NCBI GenBank assembly: GCA_902799705.1 | Contig: CADCBP010000021.1 | Coordinates: forward strand, 1 to 34,635 | Length of the DNA stretch: 34,635 bases | Reading direction: 5' to 3' | DNA from: an uncultured Bacteroidales bacterium | Lineage (GTDB): Bacteria; Bacteroidota; Bacteroidia; Bacteroidales; Paludibacteraceae | Shown: piece by piece, positions 1,415 to 30,732 of the stretch | Position numbering within the stretch: the stretch's first letter is position 1 | How the letters are laid out: each line of letters opens with the position of its first letter | Notes under the pieces: generated by a model | Databases searched by the model: none | The model's input: only the letters and a program-made list of their open reading frames with translations | Told to the model about the DNA's origin: nothing | Program-made: the position numbers and the translations under genes

Positions 1415-1747
1415 ATGTACAGTATTATGAGTATTTGGGCAATGCTCAGTCCGCAAGGCGAGTACAAGCGGCGGCGAGGGGCATGCGAACGGTTGTGGGA
1501 GGGTTATGACGAGTTGACGCGGCAGCGTGTTTACGAAGCACTCAAGGCAGCCAAGGAAGAAGGGCGATGGATCAACCCGAACCCTTATTTCGCGATAGAA
1601 GATACCGCGATAGCAGAGCAACGGAAGCACCGCGCACAGACATTAACGTACAATGAGTACTACAAACAGTACGGGACGACGGAAGAACGCGACGGATGGA
1701 AGATGACCAACCCGACCGGACAGAGAGTGATTTATGTGAAAGAATGA
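1415..1747 (+). CDS. Hypothetical protein, 110 aa, possibly phage- or element-derived
   Basis: The ATG at 1415 follows an AT-rich leader. The product is soluble, with no signal peptide or membrane segment. The N-terminal half is basic and probably helical (EYKRRRGACERLWEGYDE), followed by a NPNPYFAIED segment, then YNEYYKQYGTTEERDGW and a NPTGQRVIYV end. This looks like a real folded protein of a small Bacteroidales accessory family, but I cannot name it. The last residues and the stop (GTG AAA GAA TGA) come from an 8-bp tandem array that begins inside the gene, so the natural end was probably overwritten by the array. Confidence 0.6.
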   Translation: MYSIMSIWAMLSPQGEYKRRRGACERLWEGYDELTRQRVYEALKAAKEEGRWINPNPYFAIEDTAIAEQRKHRAQTLTYNEYYKQYGTTEERDGWKMTNPTGQRVIYVKE

Positions 1748-1811
1748 AAGAGTGAAAGAGTGAAAGAATGAAAGAGTGAAAGAGTGAAAGAATGAAAGAG
1801 TGAAAGAGTGA
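1736..1811. repeat. 8-bp tandem array, RTGAAAGA
   Basis: Nine units of GTGAAAGA or ATGAAAGA run from inside the end of the 110-aa gene to 1807. The unit is the same as in the arrays at 1909 and 6276. It supplies the stop codon of the gene at 1415. Confidence 0.9.
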
Positions 1812-1908: not shown

Positions 1909-1945
1909 GAAAGAGTGAAAGAATGAAAGAATGAAAGAATGAAAG
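1909..1945. repeat. Second 8-bp tandem array, RTGAAAGA
   Basis: About four and a half units of the same GTGAAAGA/ATGAAAGA repeat. A G/C-rich run of GGGGGGGAGGGG follows and then the 11-bp array. Confidence 0.85.
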
Positions 1946-4473: not shown

Positions 4474-5043
4474 ATGGACAAGAAGTTTATCGTGACGATA
4501 GGCCGTGAGTTCGGAACGGGTGGTCGTCAGATTGCTACGGAATTGGCGAAGCAGTTGGGTGTGCAGTTATACGACCGCCAACTGTTGGAACCTATTCGCG
4601 AGAAATACAACCTCACGCAAGAAGAGGTGGATCAGTTCAAAGCGACAAAGCCGAGTTTCTGGTATGAGAATATTTCCGAAGACCTGTACAAGGACGAGGA
4701 GTTCTTGGTTCGCTCGCTGGCGCACAAGGAGTCGTGCGTCATCTTGGGTCGTACGGGTTTTCATATCTTCCGCGAGGAACCTAATGCGTTCAAGGTCTTT
4801 CTGATGGCGGACCGCGCTTTCCGTCGCGACAAAGTAGCCCGCCGTCTGAATATCAACGAGGGCAGTGCGGACGCCTTGCTGGACAAGGTGGACACCGCGC
4901 GAGAGAACTTCACGAAGACCTTCAGCGGCAAGACGCGATACGATGCCCGCAACTACGACTTGGTGCTAAACGTGACAGGGCTCGAACCTGCCGAGGTGGC
5001 GCGGTTCATTGCCGAGTGTGTACATCGTAAGATAGGTCAATGA
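4474..5043 (+). CDS. Cytidylate kinase-like family protein, 189 aa
   Basis: The protein opens with a P-loop, GREFGTGGR (residues ~10-18), typical of the cytidylate kinase-like family (PF13189-type), which binds ATP and phosphorylates a nucleoside monophosphate or an unknown substrate. A VILGRTGFHIF segment in the middle and an Arg-rich lid (DRAFRRDKVARRL) follow, with a DLVLNVTG segment near the end. At 189 aa it is typical for this family and shorter than canonical Cmk (~225 aa). The substrate is unknown. It is the second gene of the operon and overlaps the next gene by four bases (ATGA at 5040-5043). Confidence 0.85.
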   Translation: MDKKFIVTIGREFGTGGRQIATELAKQLGVQLYDRQLLEPIREKYNLTQEEVDQFKATKPSFWYENISEDLYKDEEFLVRSLAHKESCVILGRTGFHIFREEPNAFKVFLMADRAFRRDKVARRLNINEGSADALLDKVDTARENFTKTFSGKTRYDARNYDLVLNVTGLEPAEVARFIAECVHRKIGQ

Positions 5044-6287
5044 TCCACCTGTTGCTGGTCATATTAAGTGTGATGACATGGACCGTGGAGAGCAAGAACA
5101 CGGTGAAGTTAACCGACGGCAGCACTGCGCCGTACAACCTTGAGGCGAGTTATACCAACACGTACAACAAAGGTCAGTTACGGTTGGGCGATGAAGCTAC
5201 CCTGACGCTTAAGAACATGGGCGGAGTCAGCGTAGAGCGCGTGTCGTTGGCGATGCACGCTAATGAGCAAAGCGGTGCAGGAAATGTCGAAGTGGAAGGC
5301 AACGGCACGCGATGGGCGGACAAGACCGTGACATGGCAGAACGTGAGTGCGGATGTAGAGGTATATAAAGGTCATCAACCCGATGTGGAGACGATGACGA
5401 TCCGCGTGACGGGGCTTCAAAACTCGATTTATGTGGATGCCTTTACTATCGAGTGGTCACCCCGTGCAGCGCAGCAAGTCGTCCTGATGAAAGGCGCGAC
5501 GCCGATAGACACGCTGCGGGAAGAACAAGGGATGAACGGAGTAGTCCTGCCCTGGCTGCAGGACGAGGACCATTGGCATTTCAGAGGATGGAGCAAGGAG
5601 GAGTTCTGGACGGTGTATGACGAACCGACTTACATTCTTCCTGAGACCCTCTACTATCCCGACAACGATGTCTTGTGGGCGGTCTATCAATGGGAAGAAG
5701 CGGACACGGGAGAGAGGAATTACGAGGAGAACTTGGAGTCCGGCGTCTATATGTACGTCAACCGCATAACACAGATGGCGTTGACGGGAGTGCCGGAGAA
5801 CGGAGCAATGAGGCGCGCAGAAGCGAATGTGTATGACGCCAACCAGCACTATGAACTCACGTTCACGGAGGACAACACAGTGTATATCACGCATGTCCCG
5901 ACAGGCACGCCGATAGGCTATAACGGCAAACAGATGGCGGCGAAAGCGTCGCCGTGGAACGTGTACCACCAAGGAGACCAGACACTGTTCTACACCACGA
6001 TAAACGGCAAGAACTATGTGTTATGGCTGGAGATCATGGAGGGCGGCGGAAACGAGACGCACGCAGGACTGCTCCAAGCCAATCCGGGTGAATCGCCTAT
6101 GGGACTGTTGGAAACGATGATGCCTACGGAGATATACGCCTTTACATGCCACCCCGAGGCGATGGTGGGAATAGAGAGCGTGCAGCCTTCAGAGCTCAGA
6201 ATTCAGAAGATACTCCGTGACGGACAAGTGCTTATTCTCCGGCAAGGAGAGACATATACAATGACGGGGATGAGAGTGAAAGAATGA
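5040..6287 (+). CDS. Secreted tail-bearing protein of unknown function, 415 aa
   Basis: The start overlaps the kinase-like gene in ATGA. Residues 1-17 form a short signal peptide. Residues ~20-140 look like a beta-sandwich (TVKLTDGSTAPYNLEASYTN, YVDAFTIEWSP). Residues ~145-215 contain a GW-type module (VVLMKGATPIDTL ... FRGWSKEEFW ... VLWAVYQWEE) like the linker domain of the nucleases at 24967-30213. Residues ~235-370 are a further beta-rich domain of unknown type. The end (KILRDGQVLILRQ...YTMTGMRVK) is the sorting-like tail shared with four other proteins here. The last residue and stop are contributed by the 8-bp array that begins at 6276. Confidence 0.75.
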   Translation: MIHLLLVILSVMTWTVESKNTVKLTDGSTAPYNLEASYTNTYNKGQLRLGDEATLTLKNMGGVSVERVSLAMHANEQSGAGNVEVEGNGTRWADKTVTWQNVSADVEVYKGHQPDVETMTIRVTGLQNSIYVDAFTIEWSPRAAQQVVLMKGATPIDTLREEQGMNGVVLPWLQDEDHWHFRGWSKEEFWTVYDEPTYILPETLYYPDNDVLWAVYQWEEADTGERNYEENLESGVYMYVNRITQMALTGVPENGAMRRAEANVYDANQHYELTFTEDNTVYITHVPTGTPIGYNGKQMAAKASPWNVYHQGDQTLFYTTINGKNYVLWLEIMEGGGNETHAGLLQANPGESPMGLLETMMPTEIYAFTCHPEAMVGIESVQPSELRIQKILRDGQVLILRQGETYTMTGMRVKE

Positions 6288-6354
6288 AAGAGTGAAAGAA
6301 TGAAAGAGTGAAAGAGTGAAAGAGTGAAAGAGTGAAAGAGTGAAAGAATGAAAG
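6276..6354. repeat. 8-bp tandem array joining two genes
   Basis: Nine full units of GTGAAAGA/ATGAAAGA and a partial tenth lie head to tail. The first units carry the stop (TGA 6285-6287) of the upstream secreted protein and the last ATGAAAG is the start codon of the peptidase at 6348. The unit is the same as in the arrays at 1736 and 1909. Confidence 0.95.
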
Positions 6355-8378
6355 TATTAGCAATTATATTATCGGTATTAACCGGCATCTTAGGCGGTGA
6401 GTACAACGCCAAGACCCTGAGCGTGGCGGAACAGGACAGTATCTTGAATGAGAGAATGTGCGCGACTGCGTCGCTCAATGATGGAATGATGAAATTCCGC
6501 TACCGCCTGGAGAAAGAGAACGGGCAGAAGATCTTCCGCCATTCGGAAGTGGCGGAGTGGTACATCGTGGACACGATGCGTCATACGCGCAAGCGCCTGG
6601 GAGAAGGCCTGGTGCGCGATGCGGTGATGAGCCCCAATGGACGCTATGTGGCATTTGCGAAAGGCAATAACCTTTATGTTCATAAGCTCGATTTCGGCAC
6701 CGAAGTGGCGGTGACCAAGGACGAGAATCCGGATATCATCAACGGCGTAGCCGACTGGTTGTACGAGGAAGAGTTTGCCACCACGGCCTTGTTCGCATGG
6801 AGCCCCGACTCGAAAGCGCTCGCCTTCGTACGGCTCGATGAGACGGAAGTACCGACGTTCAGTTGGGAAGTGTATTCTGACACCCAGTACCCTTCTTTAG
6901 AGAGCCTTCGATATCCGAAGGCAGGGTGCGCGAACGCAAAGGCAACCGTGTGCGTCTATGACATCGCCACCAAAGGTATCCAGAGGATGCAGGTGGAGGA
7001 GAAGTCTGCCACCGGCAACCAGCAGTCAGACTTTTATTTCCCACGTCTGCGATGGGCGGACGAGAACACGCTGATGGTGCTGCGTGTGAACCGGGACCAG
7101 ACAAAGATGGAAGTGTTCTCCTGCAACGCCAAGTCCACCGTTTCCTATCCGTGGTACCGGGAGGAGAGCAAGAAATACTTCGTGGACTACAGCCTCTTTG
7201 ACCAATGGCAGTGGCTGAGCGACGGACGTGTGATCGTGCTGAGCGAACAAGACGGCTGGCGGCAGGCGTATCTGTATAAAAAAGACGGCATGCAAGTGCG
7301 TGCACTGACGCCTGAAGGCACCGACGTGACGGCTGTCTATGGAGTGAACGAGAAGACGCAGACATTATACTATCAGGCTGCGGCTACGCCCGCTACACGG
7401 CAACTGTACGCAGTAAGTCTTCAGAAAACGGCTCCCGGCGTTCAGTTAACCGAAGGAGACGGCATGCACAGCGCACGCTTGGCGAAAGACGGCACGATGA
7501 TGATAGAGTGCTTCCAGAGTTTTGAGATACCGAACATGTACACCCTCTATAACTTGAAAGGAACCAAAGCGGTGAAAGCCGAGGTTCTTCTGGACAATAC
7601 TGATGTGAAAGAGGCATGGCAGGCGAATAAACTCCCAGAACCGGAGATGATGAAGATTAACGGCCTGGAGGCGATGCTTATCAAGCCTTCAGAGGCCGGC
7701 CATCAGCCTTCTGCCCTGGTTCTCATGCACTACAGCGGTCCGGCGAGTCAGAGGGTGCTGAACAGATGGCGGAAGAAATTCGAGTACGCGCTGGTGGAAG
7801 CCGGTTATGCGGTGCTGATTGTGGACCCCCGCGGAAGCGACTGCAAGGGACGCGCATGGCGCAATGAGACCTACATGAACTTGGGCGTGAAAGAGGCGGA
7901 GGATCTGATCATGGCGGCTCGCGAAATAGCGAAACGGGACGATATAGACGGTGAGCGAATGGCTATCATGGGCTGGAGCTACGGCGGTTATGAGACGCTC
8001 TATACAATGAGCGAGAAAGATCATCCCTTCAAGGCAGGAGTGGCAATCGCGCCTGTGACGGACTGGAAGTTATACGACAGCGCTTACACGGAGCGCTACA
8101 TGCGACGTCCGCAGGTGAACAGCCGCGGGTACGAACAAGCCTCGTTGCTGCCCCGTGCCAAAGGCCTGACGGGCAATGTGCTCATCATCCACGGCACGGC
8201 GGACGACAATGTCCATGCCCAGCACACATGGCAGTATATCAACGCCTTAGTGCAGGCTGACAAGCAGTTTGAGATGCAGTTGTACCCGGACGACAACCAT
8301 CACCTCAAAAAGGGTAACAACGCTGTTCACATGCACAACAGAATATTGAATTTTTTGCAAAATAATCTAAGACAATGA
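6348..8378 (+). CDS. DPP-IV-family S9 peptidase, secreted or periplasmic, 676 aa
   Basis: This is a prolyl-oligopeptidase-family serine peptidase of the dipeptidyl peptidase IV type, releasing N-terminal dipeptides. Residues 1-17 are a signal peptide; ~85-420 are the beta-propeller with the DPP-IV glutamate motif Y139-E140-E141-E142 (WLYEEEF); the alpha/beta-hydrolase domain follows. The nucleophile is Ser544 in GWSYGGY, the acid Asp619 in GTADDNVH, the base His651 near DDNHH. At 676 aa it is shorter than the usual ~720, the missing part being at the N-terminus, where residues ~38-48 coincide with a dispersed repeat (6460-6493). The start codon is the last unit of the 8-bp array. It overlaps the ROK kinase gene by four bases. 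Confidence 0.95.
   Translation: MKVLAIILSVLTGILGGEYNAKTLSVAEQDSILNERMCATASLNDGMMKFRYRLEKENGQKIFRHSEVAEWYIVDTMRHTRKRLGEGLVRDAVMSPNGRYVAFAKGNNLYVHKLDFGTEVAVTKDENPDIINGVADWLYEEEFATTALFAWSPDSKALAFVRLDETEVPTFSWEVYSDTQYPSLESLRYPKAGCANAKATVCVYDIATKGIQRMQVEEKSATGNQQSDFYFPRLRWADENTLMVLRVNRDQTKMEVFSCNAKSTVSYPWYREESKKYFVDYSLFDQWQWLSDGRVIVLSEQDGWRQAYLYKKDGMQVRALTPEGTDVTAVYGVNEKTQTLYYQAAATPATRQLYAVSLQKTAPGVQLTEGDGMHSARLAKDGTMMIECFQSFEIPNMYTLYNLKGTKAVKAEVLLDNTDVKEAWQANKLPEPEMMKINGLEAMLIKPSEAGHQPSALVLMHYSGPASQRVLNRWRKKFEYALVEAGYAVLIVDPRGSDCKGRAWRNETYMNLGVKEAEDLIMAAREIAKRDDIDGERMAIMGWSYGGYETLYTMSEKDHPFKAGVAIAPVTDWKLYDSAYTERYMRRPQVNSRGYEQASLLPRAKGLTGNVLIIHGTADDNVHAQHTWQYINALVQADKQFEMQLYPDDNHHLKKGNNAVHMHNRILNFLQNNLRQ
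6460..6493. repeat. Dispersed repeat inside the peptidase coding sequence
   Basis: GCGCGACTGCGTCGCTCA and the following ATGATGGA match 14809-14834 with a single difference in 26 bases. Here it is translated in frame as residues near CATASLNDGMM of the peptidase. The other copy is non-coding. Confidence 0.75.
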
Positions 8379-9331
8379 AAAAGTACGCTTTGGGAATCGA
8401 CTTGGGCGGAACAGGCACCAAGTTCGGTCTTGTTAATGAAGAAGGAAAAGTCCTTCGCAGTAATTCTATTCCTACCCAGCAATATCCGAATATCGACGAG
8501 TATTGCGACGTGCTCTGCGCGGGTCTGAAACAACTTGTGGCAGACGAAGGTATCACGATGGCGGATGTAGTGGGAGTGGGTTGCGGAGCGCCGAATGCGA
8601 ATTTCTATTCGGGTTGCATCGAGCAGGCTCCTAATCTGCCGTGGAAAGGCGTGGTGCCTTTTGCCAAACTGATCAGCGAGCGGATGGGCGTCAAATGCAC
8701 CATCACCAACGACGCCAACGCTGCGGCGCAGGGAGAGATGATCTACGGCTCCGCACGCGGTATGAAGAACTTCATCGTGATTACTCTTGGTACGGGTGTC
8801 GGATCGGGTATTGTCATTGACGGCAAACTGCTCTATGGTCATGACGGTTTTGCGGGTGAGTTAGGTCACTGCAAGATCGACCATTCCGGCAACGGTCGTC
8901 TCTGCGGTTGCGGTCAGAAAGGATGTATCGAGGCGTACGCATCGGCTACCGGCGTGGCTCGTACCGCCAAGGAGATTGTGACCAGTACGACTCAACCGAC
9001 CATCCTGCGCGAACTGCCGGACATCGATCACATCACAAGCAAGGACGTGTTCGACGCGGCGGAGAAGGGTGACCTCGTAGCCAAACAGATCTTCGATTAT
9101 ACAGGGCGTCTGTTAGGAGAGAAATTAGCCGACTTCGTGCATTTCTCGAGTCCCGAGGCCATCATCCTCTTCGGCGGTCTGACGAAGTCAGGTCACTGGA
9201 TCATGGATCCTATCCGCGAGGCACTGGATGCGAACCTGATGCCGATATGGAAAGGTAAAATCCCAGTATCCGTCTCTATTCTCAAAGACAGCGACGCCGC
9301 TATCTTAGGTGCGTCTTCGCTCGCATGGTAA
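8375..9331 (+). CDS. ROK-family sugar kinase (glucokinase-like), 318 aa
   Basis: ROK kinases phosphorylate glucose or related sugars with ATP in the cytoplasm. The phosphate-binding motif DLGGTGTK is at residues 9-16, the catalytic Asp is in TNDANAAAQGE (Asp113), a second phosphate motif GTGVGSG is at 139-145, and the ROK zinc site is present as His165, Cys177, Cys179 and Cys184 (GHCKID ... CGCGQKGCIE). Length is normal. It lies between the peptidase (4-base overlap) and the deacetylase (7-base overlap) in the operon, consistent with handling a sugar released outside the cell. The true sugar (glucose, N-acetylglucosamine or N-acetylmannosamine) cannot be told from sequence alone. Confidence 0.93.
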   Translation: MKKYALGIDLGGTGTKFGLVNEEGKVLRSNSIPTQQYPNIDEYCDVLCAGLKQLVADEGITMADVVGVGCGAPNANFYSGCIEQAPNLPWKGVVPFAKLISERMGVKCTITNDANAAAQGEMIYGSARGMKNFIVITLGTGVGSGIVIDGKLLYGHDGFAGELGHCKIDHSGNGRLCGCGQKGCIEAYASATGVARTAKEIVTSTTQPTILRELPDIDHITSKDVFDAAEKGDLVAKQIFDYTGRLLGEKLADFVHFSSPEAIILFGGLTKSGHWIMDPIREALDANLMPIWKGKIPVSVSILKDSDAAILGASSLAW

Positions 9332-9945
9332 AACTGCGCGATACATGGCAATGCCTCTACCCGTACGGTGTGTTCCGCACGGGTAAGGCGGTTTACCTGA
9401 CTTTCGACGATGGACCTATTCCGGAGGTGACACCGAAGGTGTTGGCTATCTTGGCGAAATACAACGTGAAGGCGACGTTCTTCATGGTGGGTGAAAATAT
9501 CGACAAGCATCCGGAGGTGTTCCGACAAGTGGTAGAAGCAGGCCATCAGATCGGCAATCACACCTACAACCACCTCAAGGGCTGGAAGACGCCTTTCGAC
9601 GAATATATGTCGAATGTAGCGAGATGTAACAAAGCGCTCATTGAGCACCATCCATCCGTCTTCATTCCTACGCTCTTCCGTCCGCCCTACGGCAAGGCGA
9701 CCTTGCGACAACGTATCGCCTTGCATAAGATGGGATATACTTTGATCTATTGGGATATCCTCACACGCGACTACGATGCGTCCGTCACGCCGGAACAGAT
9801 GTTGCGTCTTATTCAGCGCGAGACACGTCCAGGGTCTATCATCAATTTCCATGACTCGCTCAAATCCAACGAACGAATGCTGGAAGTGCTGCCGAAAGCC
9901 ATCGAATGGCTGCAAAAAGAAGGATATGAAATAAGAGAGCTATGA
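9325..9945 (+). CDS. Polysaccharide deacetylase (NodB/CE4), 206 aa
   Basis: CE4 esterases remove N- or O-acetyl groups from peptidoglycan, chitin-like or other polysaccharides using a divalent metal. The NodB motifs are complete: TFDDGP (Asp28, Asp29), H79 and H83 in NHTYNH, RPPYGK, and the late motif containing FHDS. No signal peptide is present at the chosen start, which overlaps the kinase gene by seven bases; a cytoplasmic or membrane-associated role, or non-classical export, remains open. It is the last gene of the operon and is followed at once by a terminator. Confidence 0.9.
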   Translation: MVKLRDTWQCLYPYGVFRTGKAVYLTFDDGPIPEVTPKVLAILAKYNVKATFFMVGENIDKHPEVFRQVVEAGHQIGNHTYNHLKGWKTPFDEYMSNVARCNKALIEHHPSVFIPTLFRPPYGKATLRQRIALHKMGYTLIYWDILTRDYDASVTPEQMLRLIQRETRPGSIINFHDSLKSNERMLEVLPKAIEWLQKEGYEIREL

Positions 9946-10822: not shown

Positions 10823-11794
10823 TTATTTGTTTTTTAGAATGATCCAGATAATAATCGGCGCTCCGAACAAGGCACTGATAGTGGATATCGGAAGCGGATA
10901 GACAAAGAGCGAACACAATACATCGCAAATCAGCAGCAGCCCGGCGCCGATGAGGGCGCACGCAGGGATGGTGATGCGGTGGTTGGAGGTCTGAAAGATC
11001 CCCCGGGCGATATGCGGAACCGCTACGCCGATGAAAGCGATGGGTCCGCAGAAAGCTGTCACACCGCCGGCCAAGAGACCGGTTGCGAGGACAATATAGA
11101 GCCTCGTTCGTTGCACGTTAATGCCCAGTCCGCGTGCGTAGTCTTCACCTAAAAGCAGGCCGTTCAGCGGTTTCATCGCCAGGATGACAAAGAGCATGCC
11201 GAGGAGCAGGATAGGGAGCAAGAGCCGCATGTCTGCCCAGCTGACGCTGCTGAGCGAACCGAGGGTCCAGACAATGAAGAGTTTCAGGGCATCGGGGTTG
11301 GCGAAGTTCTGCAACAGGCTCACTAACGCGCCGGCGATGGAGCCGAACATCATACCTACGATGAGGAGGCTGACATTACCCGTCACCCGCCGGCTGACGG
11401 CTAAGACCAGCAATAAGACTCCTGTCGCACCGATGCACGCGGCTATCGGCAGACCTAAAGTTGAAAGTTGAAAGTTGAAAGTTGAAAAGATTCCGCCGAG
11501 CATCGTCAGGAAGGCGACGCCCAGACTCGCGCCGGACGAGACGCCTAAGGTGTAAGGCCCGGCAAGAGGGTTGCGGAAAAGGGTCTGCATGATCAGTCCC
11601 GAGACAGACAGCGCCGCGCCGGCAAGGACCGCCGTGACCGCTTTCGGGATACGGATGGCATGCAGGATATTGTGCTCCATGACACTTAACGTATCAAAGG
11701 GCCACAGCCATATACTGCCGCTACATATATCCAGGCAAAAAAAGAGTGCCAGAAGCACGCCCAACCCTATGAATATTCCTGCGTTTCTCTTCAT
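10823..11794 (-). CDS. FecCD-type iron-siderophore/B12 ABC transporter permease, 323 aa
   Basis: A polytopic inner-membrane permease of the FecCD/BtuC family that passes siderophore-iron, heme or cobalamin inwards. Family motifs are clear: GAALSVSGLIMQTLFRNPLA, LGVSSGASLGV, and FIGVAVPHIAR. The ATG at 11794 is preferred; the frame opens further up to 11842, but that would begin inside the promoter (11812-11843). A 7-bp tandem array at 11458-11489 is translated as part of a loop (TFNFQLST). No binding protein or ATPase is beside it, so it must pair with components elsewhere or is orphaned; panB follows after three bases. Substrate undetermined. Confidence 0.92.
   Translation of the reverse strand: MKRNAGIFIGLGVLLALFFCLDICSGSIWLWPFDTLSVMEHNILHAIRIPKAVTAVLAGAALSVSGLIMQTLFRNPLAGPYTLGVSSGASLGVAFLTMLGGIFSTFNFQLSTLGLPIAACIGATGVLLLVLAVSRRVTGNVSLLIVGMMFGSIAGALVSLLQNFANPDALKLFIVWTLGSLSSVSWADMRLLLPILLLGMLFVILAMKPLNGLLLGEDYARGLGINVQRTRLYIVLATGLLAGGVTAFCGPIAFIGVAVPHIARGIFQTSNHRITIPACALIGAGLLLICDVLCSLFVYPLPISTISALFGAPIIIWIILKNK
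11458..11489. repeat. 7-bp tandem array inside the permease gene
   Basis: Four exact units of AAAGTTG (+ strand) and a partial fifth. On the coding strand they give STFNFQLST between two membrane segments. Gain or loss of one unit would shift the reading frame. Confidence 0.9.
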
Positions 11795-14133: not shown

Positions 14134-14784
14134 ATGAATCGCTATACTCTGGGTAAGATATGTAAATTTTTCTTTCACTGGCACTATGACATCCGGGTGA
14201 CAGGTGAAGAGACGCTTCGTGACGGGTCGGTACACCTGGTACTGCCTAATCATACGGCTTATATTGATCCGTTGTTATTGTTCAGTGAGATGTGGTGGCT
14301 GCCCATTAGTCCGATGGTGGACGAGTTATTCATGCGCAAGCGTTTTTACCGGCATATCCTGAACAAAGCGGATGCTATCGAGGTGCCGGATCTGAACAAG
14401 AGCGCTATGTCGCGTGAGGAAGGAGTTGCGGCTGCAGGTGCGCTGAGCAGAATAGCAATAGACAGCCTGGCCAAAGGGAAACAACTCTGTTTCTATCCTT
14501 CGGGTCACGTGAAGACGGTGGACAGGGAAGTGATTGGTAACCGGCGGATGGCCTACGAAGTATGCAAAGAGTTGCCCGCGGGCGTGCGCGTAATCCTTTG
14601 TAGAATGCGCGGGTTGGAGACCAGCCGATGGTCCAAACTCAAACCCAAACAGTGGAAATGGCGCCGCACTGTGACGATGCTCTTTGAAGATCATACCGAG
14701 GACGTGCGCACCTGGGCACAGACACTCGACCGACGAGCCTTTAATGAACAACTCGAGAACTGGTATGATGGAATGATGGAATGA
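14134..14784 (+). CDS. PlsC-like 1-acylglycerol-phosphate acyltransferase family protein, 216 aa
   Basis: The family transfers acyl chains to lysophosphatidate or other hydroxyl acceptors at the membrane. The acyltransferase motif H-x4-D is His40/Asp45 in NHTAYID, and the substrate-binding motif is FYPSGHV (120-126), a variant of the usual FPEGT-type block. There is no long membrane segment. The ATG at 14134 is chosen because the promoter ends at 14113. The final residues (YDGMME) and stop are provided by an 8-bp tandem array. Either a lysophospholipid acyltransferase or an acyl donor for lipid A-type or lipoprotein substrates is possible; the exact acceptor is not shown. Confidence 0.85.
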   Translation: MNRYTLGKICKFFFHWHYDIRVTGEETLRDGSVHLVLPNHTAYIDPLLLFSEMWWLPISPMVDELFMRKRFYRHILNKADAIEVPDLNKSAMSREEGVAAAGALSRIAIDSLAKGKQLCFYPSGHVKTVDREVIGNRRMAYEVCKELPAGVRVILCRMRGLETSRWSKLKPKQWKWRRTVTMLFEDHTEDVRTWAQTLDRRAFNEQLENWYDGMME

Positions 14785-14805
14785 TGGAATGATGGAATGA
14801 TGGAA
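14766..14805. repeat. 8-bp tandem array TGATGGAA at the acyltransferase end
   Basis: Five exact units. The third supplies the stop codon TGA 14782-14784. It runs into the dispersed repeat at 14809. Confidence 0.9.
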
Positions 14806-14808
14806 TGA

Positions 14809-20364: not shown

Positions 20365-20408
20365 GATATACCCCTGATATACCCCTGATATACCCCTGAG
20401 ATACCCCT
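20365..20408. repeat. 11-bp tandem array GATATACCCCT before cysK
   Basis: Three exact units and a fourth with one change (GAGATACCCCT), ending 12 bases before the cysK start. The position makes it a candidate for copy-number-dependent change of initiation or transcription. Confidence 0.9.
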
Positions 20409-20420
20409 GATAAGACCAAG

Positions 20421-24966: not shown

Positions 24967-26757
24967 ATGAATAAACATTTTTTCTTATTTTCTTTAACCG
25001 TATCGGTTATTTGTTTTTTGTCTGCGAAAGTTTCGGCAGCCCATGTGACTCCTGCGGATGAGATACCTGCCTATTGGGCATCGGTGGATGGTAAGTCCGG
25101 TTTGGACCTTTGGAAAGCTGTCAGTGCACAGACAAATAAAGGTTATACCTCTGTCGGATACAAGGGACTGTATGCTGCCTATTTGAAGACAGACGTCTAT
25201 CCTCAGGATTCGGTAGGCAAAGCTGGCAAGATATGGGATATGTACGGTGAGTGTGTTTTTGCCCCGAGTAATACCTGCGGCAACTATAACGGAGTATGCG
25301 ATTGTTATAACCGCGAGCACTCTATCCCGCAGAGTTGGTGGGGAGGCGGCACAAGCGGTATAGGTAATGATATCTTCCATGTACTTCCTACCGACGGAAA
25401 AGTCAACGGAGTCCGTTCCAACTACGAGTACGGAGAAGTGAACGGCGGTACCAATTGGGTGGGGAACAAGTTCGGCTCAGCCGGTTCATGGGCTACGGAT
25501 CGTAAGACAATCGCCTCCGAAGCAGGAGAAGAAATAAAAGGATCGGGTCAGGTCTTCGAACCAAAGCCGCAGTACAAAGGTGATATCGCCCGCGGTTTGA
25601 TGGGAACCATCGTCAAATGGCAGCAATCCAACCTCACCTCCGGAAATAACTTCTTTACCGGCACATATACCGTTTCGCAGAACTTCGGTCTGACGAAGAA
25701 AGCCGTTGTACTGTTGATGAAATGGCATCGCGAGGACCCCGTGTCTCGTAAGGAGATAGACCGGAACAACGGTATCCAGTCCACTCAGGGTAACCGTAAT
25801 CCGTTCATCGACTATCCTTATCTGGCAGAGTATATTTGGGGCGAGCATGCGGGAGAGACGCTGGATATGTCCAAACTCATGGCATCCACCGACCCGTCTT
25901 TCATTCCCGGCGAGAGTGACGGCTCACGCGAGGGAACGCCGGTAGGACCCACTGTAGTGAAATACGGTGTCAGTTGGTCGGTTAACGGCGAAGTGATGAA
26001 GGTGGACTCTGTTGTCGAGAACAAGAAGTTAACCGTCTTGCCTGCGACACCGATATCCTGTTCGGCAGAGTCGGATGTCTTCATGGGCTGGACGGACGCG
26101 CCTATCGATGGTACCGCGGATGAAGCGCCCGCTATCCTCTATACCGCAGTAGCCCAGTTCCCCGCCGTCACGGAAGATGTGACCTACTATGCCGTCTTTG
26201 CTCATGCCGGAGAAGGCGCCTCGGAGCCAGCGGTTTATACGTACAGTGCGGACTCTCCTGCCGATGGTTGGAACAATACGGGGACGAACAAAGGTTCGTA
26301 CTGGCTCCTTGACAGCGGAAAAGAACTCATCTCGCCGGAGATAGACCTCGCGGGGCTCAGTTCCATTCAAGCGAAACTCCGTACGTTCGGCGGCACGCAA
26401 TACGACCAGTTCTCTTTCTATGCCGGCGATAACAAGATCGGCATGATTGAAGTAAGTAAAGGAAGTACATTCTCGGATTACGAGTGGACCAATACAGGTT
26501 CGTTCAGCGGTAAGTCCCGAATCACCTTCATCTGCTCTAATGCCGGATCGAACAAGGGGGTAGGCTTCTCCTCTGTCACAATCAACGCTACCGGTGCAGG
26601 AGTCACCTATGACCGGTTTATCACCTCCTGCCAGAGTACGATGGAGGTAGAACTCGTCGGAGTCAACGACCATGCCCGCAAACTCCTTATCGGAGGACAG
26701 ATATACATCCTCCTTGATAACCAATTATTCAATCTTCAAGGTCAACGAGTAAAATGA
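24967..26757 (+). CDS. Secreted endonuclease I family nuclease, first of three, 596 aa
   Basis: A His-metal-finger nuclease of the endonuclease I/Bsn type cutting DNA or RNA outside the cell. Residues 1-24 are a signal peptide. The catalytic domain (~30-290) has Arg116-Glu117-His118 in REHSIPQSWW, HVLPTDGKVNGVRSNYEYG, and KWHREDPVSRKEIDRN before GNRNPFIDYPYLAEYIWG. A GW linker domain (~320-420, KYGVSWSVNGE ... FMGWTDAPIDGT ... VTYYAVFAH) follows, then a jelly-roll-like module (~430-560, choice-of-anchor-J type) and the sorting-like tail (KLLIGGQIYILL ... LQGQRVK). It overlaps the second nuclease in an ATGA. Confidence 0.93.
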   Translation: MNKHFFLFSLTVSVICFLSAKVSAAHVTPADEIPAYWASVDGKSGLDLWKAVSAQTNKGYTSVGYKGLYAAYLKTDVYPQDSVGKAGKIWDMYGECVFAPSNTCGNYNGVCDCYNREHSIPQSWWGGGTSGIGNDIFHVLPTDGKVNGVRSNYEYGEVNGGTNWVGNKFGSAGSWATDRKTIASEAGEEIKGSGQVFEPKPQYKGDIARGLMGTIVKWQQSNLTSGNNFFTGTYTVSQNFGLTKKAVVLLMKWHREDPVSRKEIDRNNGIQSTQGNRNPFIDYPYLAEYIWGEHAGETLDMSKLMASTDPSFIPGESDGSREGTPVGPTVVKYGVSWSVNGEVMKVDSVVENKKLTVLPATPISCSAESDVFMGWTDAPIDGTADEAPAILYTAVAQFPAVTEDVTYYAVFAHAGEGASEPAVYTYSADSPADGWNNTGTNKGSYWLLDSGKELISPEIDLAGLSSIQAKLRTFGGTQYDQFSFYAGDNKIGMIEVSKGSTFSDYEWTNTGSFSGKSRITFICSNAGSNKGVGFSSVTINATGAGVTYDRFITSCQSTMEVELVGVNDHARKLLIGGQIYILLDNQLFNLQGQRVK

Positions 26758-28448
26758 AAAAGCATCTGTTTTTAGCATTCTGTGTTCTTTGTTTCGTTAG
26801 CGTCCGGGCTAACGTCATCGAAGGTGTAGCCGCCATTCCGGAGGGGTACTATGACGGCGTGTCCGGCAAGAAATCACCGGATGCTATCCTCGATGCCCTG
26901 CAGATCTGTATCTCTCGCGACTACAACGAGATCTCCTATAAAGGTCTTGAACCCCATTACCTCAATACCGACTTCTACGCCGATTCGCTCTGGGATATGT
27001 ATTCCACGTGCCATTTCGTCTATGAGGACGCCAATAAGGCGCAGAAACAGGTGTGTGACGGATGGAACAAGGAGCATGTCTGCTGCCAGTCGTGGCTGGG
27101 TTCAGGACCGATGGTCTCGGATCTGTTCAATGTCTATCCGACGGACGCCCGCGTGAACAACCTGCGTTCGAACTACCCGTATGGGGTTGTGGGAAGCAAC
27201 AAAGGTATCTCCGGCGACCCGGATCACCATGCACTCGGCAAACTCGGTACATCGGCTGTCTCCGGTTATTCTGGCACCTGCTACGAACCCGACGACCGTT
27301 ATAAGGGTGACTTCGCGCGCACGTTCTTTTATATGGTGGCGCGCTATCGCGATAAGATTCTTAACTCCGGCGACGGGGCGAAGATGTTCTCTTCCAACCC
27401 GACAAACCTCACCGCCTACAGTTTGGCTTTCCTGCTCGAATGGCATCGCAACGACCCTGTCTCCCAGAAAGAGATAGACCGTAACCAAGCTGTCTATGGG
27501 GAGCAGAACAACCGTAATCCGTTCATCGATTACCCGGACCTCGTGGAGTATATATGGGGTACGAAAAAGAACCAGCAGGTGGACCTCTCGACCATGACGC
27601 CTACCTGTGACGGAGGCGGACAAGACCCCGCAGGAAAGGTGAAGTACGGCGTGACGTGGTCTGTGAACGGAGTCATCCTCTCTGTGGATTCTATTGTAGA
27701 GAACAAGAAGATCCAAGCCCTGCCGGAGACACCCGAGTCGTGCTCGTCTAACAGTAATGTCTTTGTCGGATGGACAGACGCGCCCATTGATGGAATAGCG
27801 GGTGAAGCGCCTGCAATCCTCTATCGCGAGCCGGCAGATTTCCCGCCGATAACGGCTGATGTGACTTACTATGCCGTCTTTGCGCACACAGAGACTATCG
27901 ACCACGGAAAAGTGGAGAGCACCGAGTCGGTGAACATGAAAGCGCAAGGCTATACGAACGGACAAGAGGTGACCACTATCACGAAAGGGGATGTCACTCT
28001 CACGTTCGGAAAAGGAACAGCAGGCTCCAATGTGCCGAAATATTATAATACCGGCGAAGCCGTGCGTTGCTATCCGGGTAACACCATGACAGTGACCGCG
28101 GAGTCAATAACCAAGATTGTCTTAACCTTTGGTTCCGGCGATTCCAATAACGCGATAAGTGTCAGCACCGGTGCGCTAAGCGGTAGTACTTGGACAGGTG
28201 ACGCAGACCAGGTGGCCTTCTCCGTAGGAGGTTCCAGTGGTCACCGGCGTATAGCGCAAGTGGATGTTACCATGAACGGTTCCGGTGCGCAAACGGTTTA
28301 TTCCGATTACCTTACCTCCTGTTCTGGTAGCGAAGATATCGAAAATCATACATTTGAAACCATAAATCGTAAAATATTTATCGATGGTCGTTTGTACATT
28401 CAGGTAGGTGAAAACCTCTTCAATGTTCAGGGCAAACGGGTAAGATAA
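26754..28448 (+). CDS. Secreted endonuclease I family nuclease, second of three, 564 aa
   Basis: A paralogue of the first. Signal peptide ~1-19. The catalytic site is Lys106-Glu107-His108 in NKEHVCCQSWLG, with VYPTDARVNNLRSNYPYG, KGDFARTFFYMVARY and WHRNDPVSQKEIDRN before NNRNPFIDYPDLVEYIWG. The linker domain is similar (KYGVTWSVNGV ... FVGWTDAPIDGI ... VTYYAVFAH). The C-terminal module differs from the first nuclease and resembles the third (TLTFGKGTAG ... FGSGDSNNAISV ... SVGGSSGHRRIAQV). It ends with TSCSGSEDIEN and the tail KIFIDGRLYIQV...VQGKRVR. The changes around the His suggest a different specificity or optimum, not loss of function, as His and Glu are kept. Confidence 0.92.
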   Translation: MKKHLFLAFCVLCFVSVRANVIEGVAAIPEGYYDGVSGKKSPDAILDALQICISRDYNEISYKGLEPHYLNTDFYADSLWDMYSTCHFVYEDANKAQKQVCDGWNKEHVCCQSWLGSGPMVSDLFNVYPTDARVNNLRSNYPYGVVGSNKGISGDPDHHALGKLGTSAVSGYSGTCYEPDDRYKGDFARTFFYMVARYRDKILNSGDGAKMFSSNPTNLTAYSLAFLLEWHRNDPVSQKEIDRNQAVYGEQNNRNPFIDYPDLVEYIWGTKKNQQVDLSTMTPTCDGGGQDPAGKVKYGVTWSVNGVILSVDSIVENKKIQALPETPESCSSNSNVFVGWTDAPIDGIAGEAPAILYREPADFPPITADVTYYAVFAHTETIDHGKVESTESVNMKAQGYTNGQEVTTITKGDVTLTFGKGTAGSNVPKYYNTGEAVRCYPGNTMTVTAESITKIVLTFGSGDSNNAISVSTGALSGSTWTGDADQVAFSVGGSSGHRRIAQVDVTMNGSGAQTVYSDYLTSCSGSEDIENHTFETINRKIFIDGRLYIQVGENLFNVQGKRVR

Positions 28449-28470
28449 CCAATATAAAATCTACCATTCA

Positions 28471-30213
28471 ATGTCCAATTTCAAATCTCAAATAAGACTA
28501 TTGTCCTTTGTTCTTAGTCTCTGGGCGGTGAGTATTTTTGCCGAAGACCTTCCCGAGGGGTTCTATAACTCTGTGAACGGTCTGAAGGATTGTGCACTCA
28601 AAGGTACGCTCAAGGAGTTGATTCGTGACCACACCGTCATCCCATACGGAGAGGGCTCGTGGGAAGTGTTTTATTATGCCGATCAGGACGAGAACGGGTA
28701 TTGTATGGATATGTACTGCGACGACTGGAAGAAATTCGGTGCTCCCGGTTCAGCCGTTTCGGGCTGTAACGTAGAGCATAGTTTTGCCAAGTCGTGGTGG
28801 GGCGGTGCGAAGAACGATGCGTACAAGGATTGTTATCATCTCAATCCTTCCAACTCTGTGGCTAATAGTGCCCGCAGCAATTATCCTTTAGGTATCGTAA
28901 CCAATCTCGTGAAGACAGCCGGTTCTCTGAAAATCGGCAAACAGCACCACGACTCCCTCAACGTAGATTTCAATATCTGGGAACCCAAAGATGAGTACAA
29001 AGGAGATTTCGCCCGTGCATACTTCTATATGGCTACGTGTTACGGCAAGGACAAAAACGGTGCGTACGATCCGACTGTCTGCTCTGCTTACCAGGGATGG
29101 CGGCTGGATAACAAAGATGTAGGTTCGAAATTCGCCATGCAGAACGATAACTACCTGGAGTTCCAACCATGGGAGCAAGAGGTGCTTATTACATGGCATC
29201 GTCAGGACCCTGTCTCCGTCAAGGAGATCAAGCGTGCGGACGCGGTCTCGAATTTCCAGCATAACCGTAATCCGTTTATTGACTATCCGTATCTGGCGGA
29301 GTTTATATGGGGTGAGAAAGCCGGTGAAGAACTCAATCTGGCAGATCTGATGGGCTCTTTTGAAGCGGACTTTATCCCGGGTCAGAGTAACGGATGGCGA
29401 GGCGATGTCACGCCCGTAACGCCGAAACCCAAATATGGCGTTACCTGGTTGGTGAACGGCGAAGAGATATACGTGGATTCGATTACGGAGAATAAGAAAG
29501 TAACGGCACTCCCCGAGACGCCTGAGTCGTGCTCTACCGAGAGTACGGAGTTCATGGGCTGGACCAATGCCTCCATCAGAGGTACGCTTGACGAAGCGCC
29601 GGCTATCCTCTATACCACAGTAGCTCAGATCCCCGCCGTCACGGCTGACGTGACCTACTATGCTGTTTTCGCGCATAAGACAATAGAGGAGGGTGGAGAC
29701 GTGCTCAAAGAAACCACCTTCACCTTTACCAAGACAGAGACCACCGTTACGCAAGAGGATGTCTCTGTCACGTTCGCGAAAGCAGGAGGCAGCAACGAAC
29801 CGAAATATTACGATAGTGGTAGTGCGATTCGTTGCTATGCTAAAAATACCATTACTGTATCTGCGCCGAAGGTTAACTCTATAGAGTTCACTTTTGGTTC
29901 TGGCGACGGCTCGAACGAGATCAATGTTAATGTGGGCACCTTCTCCGGTAAAGTGTGGACAGGAAATGCCGATGAAGTGGTATTTACTATTGGCGGTTCC
30001 AGCGGTCACCGGCGTATCGCAGGAATGAAGGTGGTGTATAATGGCCAAGGTTCATCTGTGGTATTCGACAAGTACCTCACCTCTTGTTCCGGTAGCGAAG
30101 ATATCGAAAACAGCCAATTACCGACGGCTATCCGCAAATTTATCCGCTCCGGACAACTTCTCATACAGGTTGGCGACCAAATCTACACCATCACCGGTCA
30201 GAAAGTACAATAA
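28471..30213 (+). CDS. Secreted endonuclease I family nuclease, third of three, 580 aa
   Basis: The third paralogue. Signal peptide ~1-24. The catalytic site is Val101-Glu102-His103 (NVEHSFAKSWWGG), with HLNPSNSVANSARSNYPLG, KGDFARAYFYMATCYG and WHRQDPVSVKEIKRA before HNRNPFIDYPYLAEFIWG. The Arg or Lys before Glu-His in the others is Val here. Linker domain and GHRR module (VTFAKAGGSNEPKYY ... FTIGGSSGHRRIAG) match the second nuclease; the tail is KFIRSGQLLIQV...ITGQKVQ. It begins 22 bases after the second nuclease and is followed by a terminator. An extracellular role in nucleic acid use, biofilm handling or defence against extracellular DNA is inference. Confidence 0.92.
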   Translation: MSNFKSQIRLLSFVLSLWAVSIFAEDLPEGFYNSVNGLKDCALKGTLKELIRDHTVIPYGEGSWEVFYYADQDENGYCMDMYCDDWKKFGAPGSAVSGCNVEHSFAKSWWGGAKNDAYKDCYHLNPSNSVANSARSNYPLGIVTNLVKTAGSLKIGKQHHDSLNVDFNIWEPKDEYKGDFARAYFYMATCYGKDKNGAYDPTVCSAYQGWRLDNKDVGSKFAMQNDNYLEFQPWEQEVLITWHRQDPVSVKEIKRADAVSNFQHNRNPFIDYPYLAEFIWGEKAGEELNLADLMGSFEADFIPGQSNGWRGDVTPVTPKPKYGVTWLVNGEEIYVDSITENKKVTALPETPESCSTESTEFMGWTNASIRGTLDEAPAILYTTVAQIPAVTADVTYYAVFAHKTIEEGGDVLKETTFTFTKTETTVTQEDVSVTFAKAGGSNEPKYYDSGSAIRCYAKNTITVSAPKVNSIEFTFGSGDGSNEINVNVGTFSGKVWTGNADEVVFTIGGSSGHRRIAGMKVVYNGQGSSVVFDKYLTSCSGSEDIENSQLPTAIRKFIRSGQLLIQVGDQIYTITGQKVQ

Positions 30214-30366: not shown

Positions 30367-30732
30367 ATGCACAACTTCAGAAAACTCGACATTTGGCTGG
30401 ATGGCGTAGAATTGGCGGATACGATCTATACGCTGACCGCGTCTTTCCCCAAGAGTGAAGTGTTCGGCTTGGCTTCGCAGATGCAGCGTGCTGCTGTGTC
30501 GGTTCCTTCGAATATAGCAGAAGGCTCCGGCAAGGATAGCGAGAAGGATTTCGCACGGTTTTTGTCGATAGCATTGGGTTCTCTGTATGAGTTGGAAACT
30601 CAGGTAGAGATCGCTTATCGCCGTGGCTACATCGAAACGCCAAATTACTATTCCGTGCGCTCGAAACTGGAGAGTTTGCAGAAGCGTATCTATACGCTAC
30701 ATGACAGAGTCGCTAAGGATGAGACCCGCTAA
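30367..30732 (+). CDS. Four-helix-bundle protein (23S rRNA intervening-sequence type), 121 aa
   Basis: The family (TIGR02436-type, IVP) is found in 23S rRNA intervening sequences and as free chromosomal genes; its biochemical role is not established. Recognisable features are FRKLDIWLDGVELADTIY, FGLASQMQRAAVSVPSNIAE, GSGKDSEKDFARFLSIALGS and LYELETQVEIAYRRGYI, giving four helices. There is no rRNA around it here, so it is a free copy. It is bounded by a 10-bp inverted repeat (30353-30362 and 30742-30751) with short tandem repeats on the right, which suggests a ~400-bp unit that could move or spread. Its own promoter is at 30288. Confidence 0.92.
   Translation: MHNFRKLDIWLDGVELADTIYTLTASFPKSEVFGLASQMQRAAVSVPSNIAEGSGKDSEKDFARFLSIALGSLYELETQVEIAYRRGYIETPNYYSVRSKLESLQKRIYTLHDRVAKDETR

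Follow-up and report, generated by a model that had tools for sequence, protein, structure and literature searches.

An RTGAAAGA octamer array between two genes of an uncultured Paludibacteraceae bacterium and short tandem arrays at gene junctions of its genus

The window, that is, the whole stretch of 34,635 nucleotides that was analysed (contig CADCBP010000021.1 of assembly GCA_902799705.1), includes a tight run of genes on the forward strand (Table 1). The junctions of this run at 5040, 8375, and 9325 are overlaps of 4, 4, and 7 nt, and at the junction upstream of the peptidase gene the stop and the start are 60 nt apart, with a tandem array of the octamer RTGAAAGA between and across them. 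The first-pass annotation had described this array as nine units and a part, and the repeat search agreed, finding nine perfect units followed by ATGAAAG. Tandem Repeats Finder delimited positions 6273-6354 as a repeat of period 8 with 10.2 copies and 93% matches. The first letters of the ten units are, in order, GAGAGGGGGA; ATG is therefore present in three units and GTG in seven, and the earlier statement that half of the units contain ATG does not hold. Three-unit matches to RTGAAAGA occurred 15 times in the window, seven of them from the array at 6276-6354 and eight from sister arrays at 1736 and 1915, and 0 times in 100 dinucleotide-preserving shuffles, which excludes a chance origin. The array has the properties of long simple sequence repeats, namely units of 5-11 nt placed head-to-tail over a length greater than expected by chance.

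Both boundary codons are part of the repeat, as the first-pass annotation had read them. The upstream ORF ends in GTG AAA GAA TGA (V-K-E-stop) with its stop codon inside the second unit, and the peptidase start lies in the final ATGAAAG, an assignment supported by homology because near relatives begin at the same residue. The start had also been expected to be kept when the unit number changes; it is, and the stop is kept as well. Since both survive any unit number, the array does not behave as a repeat that switches a reading frame on or off, and reading-frame phase variation of the peptidase was rejected as an explanation. The C-terminus of the upstream protein (window positions 6180-6287) is unlike those of its relatives in sequence and, therefore, more than unit number has changed at this junction. 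Its last residues, YTMTGMRVKE, resemble the C-termini YTITGQKVQ (30213) and FNVQGKRVR (28448) encoded elsewhere in the window. This tail may be a secretion sorting tail.

Table 1. Features of the array junction and of the surrounding window.
Feature	Positions	Strand	Details	Basis
Sister RTGAAAGA array	1736..1811	+	Across the stop (V-K-E-stop) of ORF 1415-1747	Repeat search
Sister RTGAAAGA array	1909..1945	+	Intergenic	Repeat search
Cytidylate kinase-like gene	4474..5043	+	PF13189; same gene run	ORF, Pfam
Upstream gene	5040..6287	+	415 aa, without Pfam family; starts on an ATGA overlap with the preceding gene	ORF, Pfam
Octamer array	6276..6354	+	Nine perfect RTGAAAGA units (6276-6347), then ATGAAAG (6348-6354)	Sequence, repeat search, shuffles
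Chain of mini-ORFs	6284..6351	+	Eight predicted mini-ORFs of 3 codons (MKE or VKE); starts 6284, 6292, ... 6340	Sequence only
TGA stop of upstream gene	6285..6287	+	Within the second unit	Sequence, ORF list
DPP-IV-type peptidase gene	6348..8378	+	676 aa; PF00930, PF00326; last unit is its start, ATG 6348	ORF, Pfam, relatives
ROK-family gene	8375..9331	+	PF00480; 4-nt overlap with peptidase gene	ORF, Pfam
Polysaccharide deacetylase gene	9325..9945	+	PF01522; 7-nt overlap with ROK gene	ORF, Pfam
Octamer array, different word	14761..14808	+	ATGATGGA, RTGA-N4 type; across the stop (M-M-E-stop) of an acyltransferase-like gene ending at 14784	

Further arrays in the window are part of the same repeat-rich habit. 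The 11-mer GCCTCYGAGTT is repeated at 1956-2040, another 11-mer, GATATACCCCT, at 20365-20412, and the heptamer AAAGTTG at 11457-11487. Elsewhere in the window, Endonuclease I domains (PF04231) are encoded by three genes in succession at 24967-30213, whose products also have similar C-terminal tails, and a 23S rRNA intervening-sequence-type protein (PF05635) is encoded at 30367-30732.

Comparison of array length among relatives had been proposed, and the length at the peptidase junction does differ between species. Thirty loci, own included, were compared. The two genes share an ATGA stop-start overlap (-4 nt) at 11 of the 30, five were called as arrays, and 10 have another spacer; two loci are without a called upstream gene and two were skipped at contig edges. 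Three of the array calls are convincing: our own, with 10.2 copies; that of genome G015, with 4.8 copies of the RTGAAAGA octamer and a spacing of 20 nt; and that of G035, with 4.1 copies of the heptamer GTCGTTA. The other two (L046 and L047) were discounted, being about two copies of 10-12-mers next to doubtful TTG starts. The G015 peptidase is the best-scoring match (77% identical). The spacings of -4, 20, and 60 nt fit the series -4 + 8n with n = 0, 3, and 8. Two more own-genome junctions with RTGAAAGA, upstream of dxr and rimO (NCBIfam names), were compared at 30 loci each. An overlap or a spacing of at most 1 nt was found at 11 dxr and six rimO loci, arrays were called at four and six (own included in both cases), and other spacers were present at 10 and 15; the remaining loci were skipped or their upstream gene was not called. 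The words at the rimO junction are RTGAAAGA in the own genome, GTCGTTR in G035 and G061, TTGACGA in G030, and TTTGTGA in G005; an 11-mer was also found, and GTCGTTR was seen by eye in G015 at a contig edge. The same junctions have differing words and, therefore, arrays of different words arise there again and again. At four congener loci (L032, L034, L035, and L040), the last 50 codons of the upstream gene look as if built from octamer-like words (AATGAAGG, AGTTAACG), which near the 3' end of that gene read in frame as TNEGMKELTNE and similar peptides.

The array at 6276-6354 looks like a single member of a very large set of short junction arrays in this genus, which we take to be one of ruminant-gut Paludibacteraceae. 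Arrays of period 16 or less were counted and expressed per 100 kb, next to the density left after shuffling in blocks of 200 bp. The own genome gave 138 in 400 kb (34.5; shuffled 2.2), G034 gave 147 in 400 kb (36.8; shuffled 0.8), and 20 congeners together gave 139 in 399 kb (34.8; shuffled 1.0). The corresponding figure for 388 kb from 20 other families was 38 (9.8; shuffled 4.6), and 11 of these came from one AT-rich stretch. Period 7 leads in the genus, with 52, 70, and 47 arrays in the own genome, G034, and the 20 congeners, followed by period 8 or 11. Arrays are present at 54 of 242, 48 of 224, and 43 of 249 same-strand junctions of up to 400 nt in the same three samples (17-22%), compared with three of 176 (1.7%) in the 20 other families, and those that cover a stop or start up to 8 nt downstream of it number 43, 39, and 26, versus 0 in the other families. 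Periods 7 and 8 account for 38 of the 59 junction arrays of the own genome and 44 of the 53 of G034. The stop lies inside 30 of the 59 (random-placement null 20.5, sd 3.4) and inside 30 of the 53 (20.0, sd 3.3), whereas starts inside arrays, at eight of 59 and 11 of 53, are below a null of about 20 each. RTGA is present in the sense unit words of 19 of the 59 and nine of the 53 arrays, and in the antisense words of five and six. Two general rules were tried and rejected. Period 8 is not privileged, since RTGA arrays have period 7 in 47 of 81 genus genomes, period 8 in 37, and period 9 in nine; and RTGA octamers are not a mark of the genus, since they are also found in 26 of 118 other genomes of the order. 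Several congener contigs start within tandem arrays (G014:C7, G083:C2, G083:C28, G070:C49, and G035:C15), which suggests that these repeats break short-read assemblies.

RTGAAAGA itself is abundant in the own genome, where both strands together gave 170 overlapping three-unit matches and the reversed pattern gave 0. A set of 34 of these arrays was examined, three of them pieces of one super-array; those beyond contig C13 came from some regions only or from the window, and the genes around them were called with our own codon-usage script. A same-strand gene stops inside 13 of the 34 arrays and 1-7 nt before 11 others (together 24); the same-strand upstream gene is more distant at three, none was called at seven, and an opposite-strand stop 10 nt from an array was found in one case. 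A short hairpin-like element (gctcgcgcaatgatgcgcgagaag or near it) lies directly 3' of several of the own-genome arrays (L066, 4428-4460; L071 and L072; contigs C5, C9, and C10). Spread of the arrays as part of a longer mobile unit was rejected; their 150-nt flanks showed mainly repeat remnants, the hairpin-like element, and a few short partial matches. In other bacteria, four consecutive RTGAAAGA units were found in 85 stretches (one genome per species, the own genome maybe left out) from rumen Bacteroidales to Spirosoma, Fibrella, Saprospiraceae, and others. Among the 80 loci listed, 72 arrays lie away from edges, and at 40 of them an ORF of 120 codons or more on the same strand ends within the array or up to 12 nt before it, compared with an opposite-strand ORF at two. 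Some of this excess is mechanical, as any sense frame is forced to end within such an array. Stops located before the array were, therefore, counted separately; for the 72 arrays of the loci listed they numbered 15 on the same strand and two on the opposite strand.

The explanation that we favour, with a probability of roughly 0.6, is that the array is a junction spacer grown in place from a stop-start overlap by 8-nt tandem duplications. The ancestral junction was probably the 4-nt ATGA overlap that 11 of the 30 loci still have. A slippage-type tandem duplication of 8 nt across this overlap would lengthen the junction stepwise, producing the spacings -4 + 8n, and the direction of change would be from overlap to array. 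Such duplications would be tolerated as nearly neutral: with the upstream stop preserved in the first copy and the downstream start in the last, neither protein changes. The same process acting on other words would produce the short tandem arrays present at about a fifth of the same-strand junctions of the genus.

Two observations are not explained by local growth alone. One word, RTGAAAGA, recurs at more than 30 loci of the own genome, yet it is rare in congeners (any three-unit match is found in seven of 61 genus genomes including the own, the other six having 1 to 11). In addition, the first letter mixes A and G in 28 of the 34 own-genome arrays, while positions 2-8 vary in few units. A rival explanation is copying, in which recombination or templated copying would carry ready-made RTGAAAGA arrays from locus to locus and the peptidase junction would have received one of them. 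A stretch of 99 bp is identical in the arrays at C20:68966 and C26:23302, whose flanks are unrelated, and the longest non-periodic unit order shared by two arrays is 12 units, compared with a maximum of eight in a reversed control (496 pairs). Unit words within a genome are also more alike than expected, with 191 pairs differing by at most one mismatch versus a shuffled mean of 52 (maximum 67), and 343 versus 91 (maximum 115). The own genome is dominated by a single word, and GTCGTTR, found in 11 of 61 genomes, occurs mostly in G035 and G015. However, only one pair among the 496 is clear; a second match of 12 units consists largely of simple alternation, and once the top four pairs (12, 12, 9, and 9) are set aside the shared lengths do not exceed those of the control. 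At the peptidase junction, G015 has a shorter RTGAAAGA array, and the spacings form a series that agrees with stepwise growth. The likeness of words and the 99-bp pair make some copying between loci likely, but most arrays need none because shared orders are otherwise no longer than in the control. As the origin of the array at the peptidase junction, receipt of a ready-made copy seems distinctly unlikely.

Growth in place by duplication of the octamer would have a side effect that can be read from the sequence. Consecutive mini-ORFs of the predicted chain overlap by 4 nt, and the last one overlaps the peptidase ATG, leaving no break from stop to start; the G015 junction has a chain of three. 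The two genes, 60 nt apart, share no 4- or 1-nt stop-start overlap of their own, and the 4-nt overlap exists only at the eight mini-ORF borders and at the border to the peptidase start. The first-pass annotation had proposed that a change in unit number alters spacing and mini-ORFs. The kind of mini-ORF stays the same (all are RTG AAA GAR TGA), and it is the number of 4-nt-overlap steps that changes, since 8 = 12 - 4 and the unit number sets the count of steps. Read in this way, the array could be a self-resetting chain that keeps some coupling between its neighbours. The earlier proposal that the array tunes the coupling of the two genes is possible and gains a precise form: terminating ribosomes would be carried to the peptidase by eight successive -4 restarts, and the unit number would tune the ratio of the two proteins. 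With reporters in E. coli and Haloferax, coupling was reported to be supported by -4 overlaps and nearly abolished by a spacer of about 20 nt (PMC10666635), so that this stepwise transfer makes a sharp prediction.

The unbroken chains of eight mini-ORFs in the own genome and three in G015 end exactly at the peptidase start. Among the 34 own-genome RTGAAAGA arrays, 15 step to an ORF of 60 aa or more, eight of them directly (one without a step) and seven after a first gap of 1-7 nt. Junctions linked by such chains numbered 10 in three genus samples, versus 2.45 expected from shuffled spacers, a mild support that arrays alone would produce. They are rare (3 of 131, 5 of 127, and 2 of 122, versus 0.70, 1.45, and 0.30 expected; 0 of 98 in other families, 0.10 expected), while arrays are common. 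Removal of 0, 1, or 2 nt still let the chain reach the gene in 10, six, and nine of 12 arrays with the start in the array, and in four, two, and four of nine with the start beyond it. Variants that hit the TGA letters (positions 2-4) were nine of the 32 found at positions 2-8 in the 34 arrays, not clearly below an even spread. Period-7 RTGA arrays are equally widespread, and junction arrays of many other words in the genus are mostly without such a chain. Selection for the chain thus left no clear sign in frame shifts or unit variants, and only the shuffled spacers were mildly favourable. Taken together, restarts that carry ribosomes along the array as its reason for being remain an unlikely, although not negligible, explanation. 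A wider form of the idea is somewhat harder to credit. RTGA-N4 octamer arrays in general would be ladders that stop, reset, and hand on a ribosome arriving in any frame; an overlap could then expand to at least 60 nt without cutting coupling, and unit number would let evolution adjust the relative output of adjacent genes.

A regulatory site or open leader, in which a purine-rich unstructured repeat would be bound by an RNA-binding protein or would keep the next start open, appears very improbable. As RNA, positions 6240-6400 have a weaker fold than shuffled versions (z = +2.1), and a similar role has been put forward, as a hypothesis, for TAACTGA repeats (PMC4679880). Nonetheless, the words change between junctions and between species, and the arrays are anchored on the stop, with starts inside them below random placement.

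The arrays can be compared with several known systems. Direct repeats of the heptamer TAACTGA have been described in marine Beggiatoaceae, some Cyanobacteria, and five Bacteroidetes (MacGregor 2015, PMC4679880); the sets, 169 of them in one genome, are mostly intergenic and in one orientation. As in our case, short tandem units with forward-sense stop triplets are found at many loci per genome, and relatives of some of the Bacteroidetes sets have a shorter spacer without obvious repeats (PMC4679880). In contrast, the TAACTGA sets are described as dominated by one fixed word and as ending mostly a few nt before a start codon (PMC4679880), whereas the arrays of this genus follow stops, have words that vary by species and locus and, at the peptidase junction, an octamer unit; and the RTGA-N4 octamer, unlike TAACTGA, has both a start and a stop. 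The long simple sequence repeats of Mrazek et al. (2007, as summarised in PMC4679880) resemble the array in unit size range, 5-11 nt, with heptamers commonest in most genomes and units divisible by three likeliest in genes; the richest genomes are those of Burkholderia, Cyanobacteria, Actinobacteria, and Xanthomonas, and that summary as consulted is without stop-codon anchoring. Every unit border of the array is a -4 overlap like those of ATGA/TGATG gene pairs with termination-reinitiation (PMC10666635, PMC6728339), but the cases described there join two real genes by one overlap and not by a repeat-made chain of mini-ORFs (PMC10666635). The tandem repeats of archaeal Borgs are likewise of recent, recurrent, and genome-specific formation, but the units named are of 18-21 nt, and the repeats are perfect, located on extrachromosomal elements, and about half within ORFs (PMC9879509). 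A search of the open-licence literature, with subscription journals mostly outside it, found no report on tandem repeats in Paludibacteraceae, on stop-anchored arrays of 7- or 8-mers in this family, or on a repeat-made chain of overlapping mini-ORFs.

If the favoured explanation is true, a ruminant-gut genus repeatedly rebuilds its gene junctions from short repeats seeded at stop codons, and junction spacing would be a fast-evolving trait in this genus. Junctions with the same genes, an overlap in one species and an array in another, would then be natural test pairs for the relation between spacing and coupling. If the chain of restarts works, the array would be a simple length-tunable coupler; if the arrays are neutral, they would cleanly mark the places at which a compact genome tolerates short tandem duplications.
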